A stretch of 36,832 bases of DNA, taken from assembly GCA_003229375.1 (NCBI GenBank), contig QIDP01000087.1:1-36832 (forward strand), written 5' to 3'. The position numbers were made by a program, and so were the translations under genes. This DNA comes from Nitrospirota bacterium (GTDB lineage: Bacteria > Nitrospinota > Nitrospinia > SZUA-224). The notes under the pieces were generated by a model. It had not been told where the DNA came from, searched no databases, and saw only the letters and a program-made list of their open reading frames with translations. This document shows, piece by piece, positions 8,411-19,950 of this stretch (position 1 is the stretch's first letter; each line of letters starts with the position of its first letter).

Positions 8411-8434
8411 CTTTTCTCCTCCGTTAAAATATTA

Positions 8435-8526
8435 AAGTGCCTAAAATGCCTAAAGTGATCTAAAGTGCCTAAAGTTAATGGAATATAATCTTTTAACTTT
8501 AGCTCACTTTAGGCATTTTAGGCACT
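8435..8526. repeat. Palindromic hairpin with 9-nt iterations (RTGCCTAAA family)
   Basis: The spacer between the two coiled-coil genes is a large inverted repeat. Its left arm iterates RTGCCTAAA units (GTGCCTAAA, ATGCCTAAA, then GTGATCTAAA), and the right arm, ending ATTTTAGGCACT, mirrors about 30 bases with one or two mismatches. Related elements lie at 27050-27150 and 36792-36832. It is non-coding, probably a mobile or REP-like hairpin. It would form a strong stem in a read-through transcript. Confidence 0.88.
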
Positions 8527-8542
8527 ACTTAATTATCCTATA

Positions 8543-10192: not shown

Positions 10193-10201
10193 CTCATAAG
10201 C

Positions 10202-10356
10202 TAATTAGTGTCTGAGCGAAAATTAGTGTCTGAACCAAAACTGCCAGGGTACAAGGCGCATGAAAATTTTGTAACCGGAGTGTATTAAAATAGATGAGGA
10301 TTACAAAATTTTCATGCAACGCAGTAGATGGGTAGTCTTAGCTCAGACTCCAATTA
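10202..10356. mobile_element. 155-bp MITE-like inverted-repeat element
   Basis: Terminal inverted repeats of 16 bp, TAATTAGTGTCTGAGC at 10202-10217 and its near-complement GCTCAGACTCCAATTA at 10341-10356, enclose an inner perfect 17-bp inverted repeat at 10258-10274 and 10301-10317. A second copy of ATTAGTGTCTGA starts near 10222. There is no open reading frame. The right end supplies the last codons and TGA stop of asd. It looks like a non-autonomous transposable element or large REP-type hairpin. Confidence 0.75.
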
Positions 10357-12440: not shown

Positions 12441-12514
12441 CTGTTCACAGTTATCAGTTTACAGTTTTTTCAATTTCCTTTCTGTCTGTTTTCATTAACT
12501 GTAAACTGTGAACG
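12441..12514. repeat. Palindrome spanning the leuD 3' end
   Basis: Left arm near 12442-12466 (GTTCACAGTT...CAGTTTACAGTT) and right arm 12497-12514 (AACTGTAAACTGTGAAC) form an imperfect inverted repeat with a T-rich loop. The leuD stop at 12470-12472 lies inside, so the last dozen or so codons of leuD come from the repeat. It may act as an intra-operon attenuator or be a small mobile hairpin. Confidence 0.7.
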
Positions 12515-13006
12515 GTTACCTATTTTCTTTACAATATGTTGTATCAATCCCCCATCATCAATCAATTTCTGCATAAAGCGGGGTATGGGCAGGGCCCTGT
12601 ACTCCTCTTTTTTGGTAATATTAATTATTATACCTGAATCGACATCCACTTCGATCTCATCTCCCTCTGAGATCATATCAGATGCCTCAACCGACTCAAA
12701 GATAGGAAGCCCCATATTAAAAGAGTTACGATAAAATATCCTTGCAAATGTCCTGGCAATCACGCAGGAGATCCCGGCCCCTTTTATGGCAATAGGTGCA
12801 TGTTCACGGGAGGAACCACATCCAAAATTCTTCCCTGCCACTATGACATCCCCTCTCTCTATCTTCCTGACAAAATCCGGATCTACATCCTCCATGCAAT
12901 GCCTGGCAAGCTCCTCCGGATCAGATGTATTTAAATAGCGCGCAGGAATGATAGCATCCGTATCAATGTCTTGTCCAAATTTCCATACACTTCCCTTGAT
13001 TTTCAT
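12470..13006 (-). CDS. leuD: 3-Isopropylmalate dehydratase small subunit
   Basis: Swivelling-domain subunit of isopropylmalate isomerase, working with LeuC, which is not in this window. The ATG chosen gives 178 residues starting [24 protein letters not shown] lies just upstream. An in-frame extension upstream would run into the dispersed repeat. Family landmarks are [32 protein letters not shown] and [15 protein letters not shown]. The tail after about residue 163 ([14 protein letters not shown]) is encoded by a palindrome and does not look like ordinary LeuD. A good sigma70 promoter lies at 13135-13163. Confidence 0.93.
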
Positions 13007-13037
13007 TTCCTCTAAAAATACCTCCTCACCCCATCTC

Positions 13038-13113
13038 TCACGGACAAACAAGTTTATCCATGCCCCTCCTATAGACTCATTTCATGTATTCATCCAACCG
13101 CAGCACCGCAACA
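13038..13113. repeat. Dispersed palindromic repeat, copy B
   Basis: It lies in the leuD leader. The palindrome GGACAAACAAGTTTATCC is followed by ATGCC, ATAGACTCATTTCATGTATTC and CCAACCGCAGCACCGCAACAC. It matches inverted copy C (19411-19491) over most of its length and copy A (3867-3927) in the palindrome and CCGCAACAC blocks. In leuD mRNA it would be a 5' UTR hairpin. Confidence 0.8.
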
Positions 13114-13134
13114 CTTTATCAATTCTAATAAACA

Positions 13135-13163
13135 AGTATAATGATGAAATATGGCATTGTCAA
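13135..13163 (-). promoter_or_regulatory. Sigma70-type promoter of leuD-leuB-asd
   Basis: On the minus strand TTGACA (13163-13158) is followed after 17 bases by TATACT (13140-13135), a near-consensus promoter. Transcription would start near 13128, giving a leader of about 120 bases that includes repeat copy B. Confidence 0.8.
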
Positions 13164-13194
13164 ACGCTTTTTTCCCATTTTTGAGATTTTGATC

Positions 13195-13223
13195 TTGACA
13201 ACTAATATGTGTTGTAGTTTAAT
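13195..13223 (+). promoter_or_regulatory. Sigma70-type promoter before the structured RNA
   Basis: TTGACA (13195-13200), a 17-base spacer and TTTAAT (13218-13223) give a strong plus-strand promoter. Predicted start is near 13230, shortly before the left arm of the long paired region at 13256. No coding sequence follows for 460 bases. Confidence 0.75.
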
Positions 13224-13255
13224 AACTAAATATTTATTAATTTGTAATTTATAGG

Positions 13256-13479
13256 GGGGTTTCTCTGCTCTACTGATACTATGCAGGAGGAGAAGTTTAC
13301 TCGATGCGAGCTAACTAAGGGAACAACTTGAGTATACCTACTTTTTAATAAGGGGGGGGGCTCCAAGAGTTAACCGCATATGGGTTCTGCTCTCAAGTTC
13401 TCTGTCTTGAGTCTATAATCTGTAAGTTAAAGCTTATGACTCAAGGTTTAATTCCGGAGAAAAGGGAGCAGAGGATCCC
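13256..13479 (+). ncRNA. Candidate structured RNA of about 224 nt, class unknown
   Basis: The ends pair: GGGGTTTCTCTGCTCT near 13256-13271 with AGGGAGCAGAGGATCCC at 13463-13479. Inside are AACTTGAG (13325-13332) with CTCAAGTT (13392-13399), CTTGAGTC (13406-13413) with GACTCAAG (13438-13445), and a small CTCG-ATG-CGAG hairpin near 13300. A strong promoter lies just upstream and no ORF fits. The closing helix and size recall 6S RNA, but the inner branched helices do not clearly match that fold. It could be a 6S relative, a long leader of the downstream mltD-like gene, or a new class. The fold is my reading by eye. Confidence 0.45.
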
Positions 13480-13593
13480 ACTGTAACTAATTATTTCATC
13501 ACTTATATCGGTTCTTCTCCCCGGGATAATATCTCTTCTCCCCTCTTCAGGACGTCTTTGAGCGATCTTTAATCACAAAATGTCATCATTTTC

Positions 13594-13622
13594 TTGACAG
13601 TATGATAGTAATCCGGTATTAA
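13594..13622 (+). promoter_or_regulatory. Sigma70-type promoter of the mltD-like operon
   Basis: TTGACA (13594-13599), a 17-base spacer and TATTAA (13617-13622) precede the TTG start at 13692 by about 70 bases. The stretch between the structured RNA and this site (13480-13593) shows nothing else definite. Confidence 0.6.
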
Positions 13623-13691
13623 AAAAGAGATTTTAATTGAAGAGAAATATATATTTATAGTATATATTATATGGTCTGAAGGGAGAAAAAG

Positions 13692-15575
13692 TTGAAAAAG
13701 AGATTTAGATTTGTTCTCTGTTTTGTCCTCATCTGCCAGTTCGTTATAATCTCCAGGGGTGAGGGAAAAGAGGCTTTATACAGGAAGGAGCTATTCCCTG
13801 TTGACGGGTTAGAGAAGCAAGTCAACTTCTGGAAAAAAATATATACCCAATATACCACTGATCAGGCTGTTATTCACGATACAAAGAATCTTGATATAAT
13901 TTATGAGGTTATAGATTTTAAAAAGGTATTTGGCGATGTCAAAATAACAGAAAAAATGAAGAGGAGACTAACAAAGAAGATCAAAAAAAGATACAGGAAT
14001 ATAGTCAGCGGTCTTGCCAAAGAGGATCCTGATAATCTTAAGGGTGATGCGAAGAGGGTTTACGAACTGGTAAAAAGAGATTTCAGAAAGGCTGCAAGGA
14101 ATATCCGTGCACAGATTGGACAAAGGGATAGATTTGAGGAAGGATTAAGGCTATCGGGTCTGTATGCTGACAAAATGAAGGAGATATTCAGAGAGTTTAA
14201 TCTTCCGGAGGAGCTAACAGTTCTCCCGCATGTAGAATCATCTTTCCAATTCAATGCCTATTCAAAATTTGGCGCTGCAGGGATATGGCAGTTTACGAGG
14301 TCAACAGGAAGGCTTTTTATGCGTATCAACTATGAAGTAGATGAGAGACGGGATCCTATACTATCGTCTGCTGCTGCTGCTAAACTCCTGAAGATGAACT
14401 ATAAAGCATTAGGTAATTGGCCACTTGCTGTCACTGCCTATAATCATGGACTGTCAGGCATGAAGAGGGCAAGAAGACAGGTCGGCTCGGATAAAATAGT
14501 AGATGTGATAAATGGTTATAATAGTTACATCTTTGGTTTTGCCTCAGAAAATTTCTATGCCGAATTCCTGGCAGCCCTTGAGATAGTGAAGAACTATAAA
14601 AAATATTTCGGTGACATAGATTTTAAAGACCCTATACAATACGATATCTTTGCAATTCCTGATTATATTACTATATCGGCAATAACAAAATATTTTAACA
14701 TCTCTAAGGAGGAGATAGCATTTTTAAATCCTGCCCTCCGCAGACCGGTTTTATCTTCTCAGAAGCTGATCCCTAAAGGTTTTAAATTGCATATACCCCG
14801 GGGTGAGGGTAATAAAGCATCACGGCTCTATGCCCGGATACCAAAAGAGGAGAAACATAAAAATCAGAAGAGGACAGAATGGTATAGTGTAAGGAGAGGA
14901 GATACCCTGATCAAGATAGCCAGAAGGTTTGACACCTCTGTTGCATCATTAGAGGGCTTAAACCGGATCGCTAATTCAGGCTATATCTTTAGTGGACAGG
15001 TATTACGGATCCCCTATGAAATAAAATCGGGAAGACACAAGGTGTCAGGTCCAAAACTCATCTCCAACGTTGTAAAAAAAGATACCGGCAAGGATACAGT
15101 CTCTTCATTCCTGTCATCAAAGAAGGAGGAATACGGGGGCCATGTTGATAAAAAGAAAGGTGGCATAGGATTGATAGAGGTAGAACATGATGAGACCCTT
15201 GGACATTATGCTGACTGGCTGAAATTACCTACTCAAACAGTACGGGATTTAAATGGGTTACGGTATGGCCAACATATAAAGATCGGACAAAAAATAAAGT
15301 TATCCTTTGTTAAAGTAACCCCTGAAGAGTTTAAGGAAAAAAGGAGGGAGCATTATAAGGGTATCGAGGAAGACTTCTTCAGCAAATATTTTGTAGAAAA
15401 TACCATTATCACCACTGTAGGAGCCGGGCAGACTGTCTGGAATCTGTGTCGCGAAATCTATGACATTCCCTATTGGCTGCTTAAAAAGTATAATCAGGAT
15501 AAGAATCTATTGAAACTGGCCAGGGGGGAGTCTTTGGTTATCCCCATCGCATCAACATTTTCAGGTGAAAGGTGA
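13692..15575 (+). CDS. MltD-like lytic transglycosylase with LysM repeats
   Basis: A secreted murein hydrolase cutting the MurNAc-GlcNAc bond with formation of 1,6-anhydro-MurNAc. A TTG start with GGGAG upstream gives 627 residues. Residues 1-23 form a signal peptide (MKKRFRFVLCFVLICQF). The family-1 SLT/GH23 domain spans about 165-300, with catalytic Glu182 in LPHVESSFQFNAYS, then GAAGIWQFTRSTGR and LAVTAYNHG. About 310-370 is a degenerate LysM-like unit. Clear LysM repeats follow near 393-440 (YSVRRGDTLIKIARRF), about 495-540 and about 570-620. It is coupled by GTGA overlap to the SUMF1-domain gene. Domain order matches MltD, but no lipobox is seen. Confidence 0.9.
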   Translation: MKKRFRFVLCFVLICQFVIISRGEGKEALYRKELFPVDGLEKQVNFWKKIYTQYTTDQAVIHDTKNLDIIYEVIDFKKVFGDVKITEKMKRRLTKKIKKRYRNIVSGLAKEDPDNLKGDAKRVYELVKRDFRKAARNIRAQIGQRDRFEEGLRLSGLYADKMKEIFREFNLPEELTVLPHVESSFQFNAYSKFGAAGIWQFTRSTGRLFMRINYEVDERRDPILSSAAAAKLLKMNYKALGNWPLAVTAYNHGLSGMKRARRQVGSDKIVDVINGYNSYIFGFASENFYAEFLAALEIVKNYKKYFGDIDFKDPIQYDIFAIPDYITISAITKYFNISKEEIAFLNPALRRPVLSSQKLIPKGFKLHIPRGEGNKASRLYARIPKEEKHKNQKRTEWYSVRRGDTLIKIARRFDTSVASLEGLNRIANSGYIFSGQVLRIPYEIKSGRHKVSGPKLISNVVKKDTGKDTVSSFLSSKKEEYGGHVDKKKGGIGLIEVEHDETLGHYADWLKLPTQTVRDLNGLRYGQHIKIGQKIKLSFVKVTPEEFKEKRREHYKGIEEDFFSKYFVENTIITTVGAGQTVWNLCREIYDIPYWLLKKYNQDKNLLKLARGESLVIPIASTFSGER

Positions 15576-19547: not shown

Positions 19548-19950
19548 AACACCGGAACAGATAATAAGCCGGATTCTGTCTTCTAAAGGGCTCACGCCCG
19601 ATAGAATGGTAGTCATTCATCTGGTCCTGATATTGCTATCAGGATCAAGCGACCTAACCCGAAGGCATCGGACGAGCAGCCCTCAAACGCCTTCCTATTT
19701 GGTCTTGCTCCGGGTGGGGTTTACCTAGCTCCTGCTGTCACCAGCAGGACTGGTGAGCTCTTACCTCGCCTTTTCACCGTTATCCCGACTTAGTAAAAGT
19801 CAGGACTGTGTATTTTCTGTGGCACTTTCCTTATTCCGTACCATAGTCAGGCCGGAACACTCCGTGTTACGGAGCACCCTGCTCTGTGGAGTCCGGACTT
19901 TCCTCCCCTCGATCTTATCAAGGAGCGATTACCTAATCTACTCCGGTGTT
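19548..19950 (-). ncRNA. rnpB: RNase P RNA, bacterial type A-like
   Basis: The catalytic RNA that matures tRNA 5' ends. The reverse strand carries the conserved CR-I block GAGGAAAGTCCGGACTCC near its 5' end, the GGTAAACCCCACCCGGAGCAAGACC block and the terminal ACAGAATCCGGCTTA. The ends pair as P1 (AACACCGGA with TCCGGTGTT). About 400 nt fits. It follows the zinc-ribbon gene by some 28 bases on the same strand and may be processed from that transcript or have its own start. The end points are set by the P1 helix and are approximate. Confidence 0.95.

Follow-up and report, generated by a model that had tools for sequence, protein, structure and literature searches.

The 640-nt gap between the divergent leuD (- strand) and mltD-like (+ strand) genes holds an element that we read, with evenly balanced confidence, as a lineage-specific small noncoding RNA gene, putatively transcribed rightwards from a promoter at 13195-13223 of the window (the whole 36,832-nt stretch of DNA analysed). 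The promoter sequence, the pairing potential, a G+C island and the absence of the element from a relative's locus are directly observed. The candidate RNA looks like none of the known classes and so far appears in one species only. The genome from which it comes (G000) is an incomplete assembly of 2.56 Mb in 203 contigs, 93% complete.

Setting, candidate promoters and predicted fold

On the leftward side of the gap, the LeuD-like gene (12470-13051, - strand), with an aconitase C-terminal domain, is followed by an isopropylmalate/isocitrate dehydrogenase gene, and on the other side lies the mltD-like gene (13692-15575, + strand), encoding a lytic transglycosylase that carries SLT and LysM domains. 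Both gene names, leuD and mltD, were assigned from domain and context. The near-consensus promoter described in the original prediction is present: the candidate sigma-70 site TTGACA-17-TTTAAT at 13195-13223 on the + strand (TTGACA 13195-13200, a 17-nt spacer, TTTAAT 13218-13223) matches the consensus at 11 of 12 positions. Only four sites reaching at least 11/12 exist in the whole window on both strands, this one included, and when the 640-nt gap was shuffled 1000 times, 1% of the resulting sequences had a + strand site of this quality. An automated promoter scanner fails to report it because that program accepts only A as the second base of the -10 hexamer. A candidate leuD promoter (TTGACA-17-TATACT, 11/12, 13135-13163, - strand) points away from the element, and a candidate promoter of the mltD-like gene (TTGACA-17-TATTAA, 13591-13626, + strand) lies downstream of it, with 30 of 36 positions identical at locus L033 of G002, a genome of the same genus. 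No terminator-like site was found within 12600-14400.

The putative structured body occupies 13250-13487 on the + strand (fold z -2.8) and forms a 238-nt island of 43.7% G+C between flanks of 30.3% and 31.4%, the edges of the island coinciding with those of the predicted fold. That the ends of the region pair was confirmed, with a closing helix somewhat longer than the roughly 15 bases first described: about 20 bp are predicted (13250-13254/13481-13485 and 13256-13271/13465-13479), most pairs of the 5' arm (13250-13271, + strand) with the 3' arm (13465-13485, + strand) having probabilities of 0.8-0.98, and the core arms 13257-13270/13466-13479 are 86% complementary. At least two further helices had been claimed, and two are indeed predicted within the closing stem. 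Inner arm 1 (13300-13384, + strand) is formed by the helix 13300-13316/13368-13384, with pair probabilities mostly of 0.7-0.9; a weaker helix and nine consecutive G are predicted to form its cap. Inner arm 2 (13399-13460, + strand; CUUGAGUC / GACUCAAG) is the most certain hairpin, its predicted helix 13399-13413/13438-13460 having stem probabilities mostly of 0.93-1.00. No long reading frame is present in the body, as originally stated, the longest stop-to-stop frame lying fully within 13250-13487 being of 44 codons. The nine-G run (13352-13360), in a window of 40% G+C, is a possible slippage site or weak point of the assembly.

The 5' closing strand recurs further inside (13383-13395, + strand), and this inner copy is able to pair with the same 3' arm. 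The duplex of the 3' arm with the stretch around this copy reaches -21.2 kcal/mol vs -29.3 kcal/mol with the outer strand, and when the 5' arm (13254-13272) is kept single-stranded the fold reaches -66.0 instead of -79.7 kcal/mol, a cost of about 14 kcal/mol. As the outer duplex is stronger and its opening is costly, most molecules should be in the closed form at equilibrium. It is an improbable reading that the element represents an RNA class that is new, restricted to this lineage and equipped with an internal switch, in which the 3' arm 13465-13485 would exchange the 5' strand for 13383-13395; the second state would free the 5' end and a GGAGGAG at 13286-13292, otherwise covered by the inner copy.

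Fold statistics and searches for relatives

The fold of 13230-13500 has an energy of -79.7 kcal/mol and a z of -2.83, with 3 of 200 shuffles equally good, and for 13253-13484 this was the case for 6 of 500. The - strand, with z -2.16, is weaker against its own shuffles than the + strand. The most stable long-range pairing within the gap (-30.1 kcal/mol) was reached by none of 100 shuffles (mean -21.0, sd 1.9), and when both ends of the element were tested as a duplex, none of 1000 shuffles was as good. Among 56 real 640-nt segments of the window (mean -22.3, sd 3.9) this pairing ranks second, and the closing helix is less exceptional against real sequence than against shuffles. Moreover, the background z in 306 coarse segments covering the whole window had a mean of -0.56 and an sd of 1.38, and at least 14 of the 306 were at -3.1 or lower, so that a z close to -3 is nothing unusual here; the coarse grid straddled the element, which is therefore not visible in that scan. 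The statistics support an RNA gene without proving one.

A BLAST search with 13240-13500 against 100 genomes recovered no homologue and no match spanning the element. Matches at E up to 1 occurred in 39 of the 100, the best besides the element itself having an E of 0.027 over 19 nt. One place inspected further, the L005 match, proved to be a lone 37-nt piece with no additional similarity and was discarded. A BLAST search of its own genome (E 1 or better) matched the element only to itself. A covariance model (R1) was built from the element sequence entered twice, and its sensitivity is low because it holds a single sequence; run with stricter filters on two overlapping sets of genomes, it matched in 1 of 77 and then 1 of 387, each time the element itself, which was also its sole match in the window. 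A 16-base piece of the 5' arm matched 16 viral contigs, in which R1 found no match. Over 22 loci R1 gave four matches of about 30 nt (E 0.35-0.87), all of them in L033/L044, which are the same locus. No match to the element was found in phage records, and the one match in plasmid records, 36 nt of a Campylobacter plasmid over the AT-rich promoter part (E 0.009), was taken as chance.

As no homologue was found, the element provides no covariation. It resembles the candidate structured RNAs from comparative intergenic screens (e.g. PMC2864571) in being intergenic, structured and of unassigned function; however, those candidates rest on the comparison of homologues, whereas here there is one sequence. 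A literature search on species-specific small RNAs gave nothing relevant.

The covariance-model check proposed with the original prediction was carried out with Rfam, and there was no match to any known class in the element, with nothing relevant either at the gathering score or at E 10; weak matches to snoR17, HIV_GSL3, mir-3689 and TeloSII_ncR43 were all far below the cut-offs. The suggested likeness to 6S RNA was not supported. The element shares with that RNA a length of about 200-250 nt, a candidate promoter of its own and a long closing stem, but the 6S model (RF00013) had no match in it at the gathering score or even with E relaxed to 10, and a 6S locus is present at another place in the genome (G000:C33:6721-6905, 68.9 bits, gathering score 46.4). 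In 6S RNA a single-stranded central bubble lies between the closing stem and the terminal loop (PMC4064990), whereas the predicted fold of the element is branched, with several arms on a junction, a mostly paired interior and no single large central bubble in the model.

SRP RNA and tmRNA were also considered as identities, because neither was found above cut-off in this incomplete genome. The SRP RNA models RF00169 and RF01854 had no match in the element or anywhere in the genome. For tmRNA, which is recognised by its tRNA-like ends and tag frame, ARAGORN reported none in the window, the element included, RF00023 had no match in the element even at E 10, and of the nine matches to the tmRNA model, eight with loci, those eight were called by ARAGORN as tRNAs or as nothing. 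G001 and G002, of the same genus, have clear large SRP RNAs of about 200 bits, making an assembly gap the simpler and likelier reason, and the absence of SRP RNA and tmRNA from G000 is probably due to missing contigs. Thus, despite its size and closing stem, it is very improbable that the element is 6S RNA or another known housekeeping RNA, none of the 6S, SRP and tmRNA models matching here even at E 10. A class A RNase P RNA is found elsewhere in the window (19550-19944, - strand, 294 bits).

Same-genus comparison and alternative explanations

In G002 both leuD and mltD are retained, as are similar promoter blocks, but nothing of the element is seen. The leuD-side block (13130-13172) is identical to its counterpart in L033 at 36 of 43 positions, and the distance between the two blocks is 75 nt in G002 vs 418 nt in the window. 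Rfam had no match in the gap of G002 (L033 1000-1600). When an empty site was sought by alignment with G002, the answer varied with gap costs, and the alignment placing it scored 23.7 vs a shuffle mean of 26.4, with 340 of 500 shuffles equally good. As the middle part aligns no better than shuffles, no insertion point is claimed; in a MAFFT alignment of the two regions the 3' end was not anchored. In the second relative, G001 (58% complete), MltD matched at just 34% identity and LeuD not at all, so this genome is uninformative on the locus. On this comparison, either the present lineage acquired the element or G002 lost it.

The absence from G002 is consistent with an intergenic sequence that is untranscribed or non-functional, evolves fast and pairs or resembles a promoter only by coincidence, as are the moderate z, the comparable or stronger folds elsewhere in the window and the second place of the long-range pairing among 56 segments. 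However, the promoter (1%), the closing helix (0/100) and the G+C island all coincide in one place, and we regard a chance fold as possible, if on the unlikely side. G002 also bears on the leader of the mltD-like gene or operon that had been proposed as an option. The element is on the same strand as mltD and no terminator lies between them, but a promoter-like block resembling that of the relative (30/36) does, the mltD start codon is about 200 nt beyond the end of the element, and G002 has both mltD and this block without the element. A block on the mltD side downstream of the element, together with its absence from G002, makes a conserved mltD leader unlikely, and the leader reading as a whole is disfavoured as quite unlikely. 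The site at 13163-13135 (- strand), on the other side and pointing away, argues against a leuD leader as well, if it is leuD's promoter.

The difference in presence between the two genomes would also suit a non-autonomous, MITE-like mobile element, solitary or decayed, with the closing helix as terminal inverted repeats. A direct repeat flanks the element, near-perfect over 13 bp (TAACTAAATATTT / TAACTAATTATTT) and imperfect at 13223-13246/13484-13507 (75% over 24 nt), and palindromic intergenic elements are indeed present in the genome, with 84 and 34 BLAST matches. On the other hand, BLAST at E 1 or better found the element single-copy in its own genome, the terminal-repeat pattern (up to one mismatch) had four other matches on four contigs, never paired, with one match for the reversed control, and the empty-site alignment was no better than shuffles. 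A mobile origin is therefore unlikely in our assessment.

Two such palindromic elements lie in the window itself. The stretch 8425-8535, with a 31-bp inverted repeat (97% complementary) composed of CTAAAGTGCCTAAAGT-like units, is a dispersed palindromic, MITE- or REP-like element; it has 84 BLAST matches in its own genome, 54 in G001 and 4 in G002, the 84 and 54 standing for fewer elements because both strands of the palindrome are counted. The stretch 10193-10342 is a second dispersed intergenic palindromic element, with 34 matches in its own genome, 21 in G001 and 1 in G002. Like these, the candidate RNA element has an inverted repeat, is intergenic and holds no gene; they are many-copy, whereas it is single-copy with a candidate promoter of its own.

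A candidate small RNA gene

The lineage-specific RNA gene remains our preferred reading. In its favour, an 11/12 promoter stands at the right distance, which occurs by chance in about 1% of cases, and both neighbours have their promoter-like blocks outside the element, these blocks resembling those of G002, which lacks it. The sequence features of the promoter-driven structured RNA without an ORF were upheld, and its transcription stays putative. We infer transcription, the 3' end and every step of action as follows. The transcript would start near 13230 and fold into a compact three-armed RNA of about 240 nt (13250-13487), shielded end to end by the long closing helix. It would constitute an independent unit, flanked by the promoter-like sites of leuD and of the mltD-like gene, which face in opposite directions. 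Since no intrinsic terminator follows the element, Rho or trimming by RNases would be needed to define its end. The RNA would most likely act in trans, by pairing with mRNA or by binding a protein.

We take the element to be a real feature and an orphan RNA-gene candidate. If transcribed, it would join the orphan small RNAs, coming from a groundwater lineage that has seen little study, and would clearly illustrate an RNA gene that one species has at a locus where its same-genus neighbour has none.
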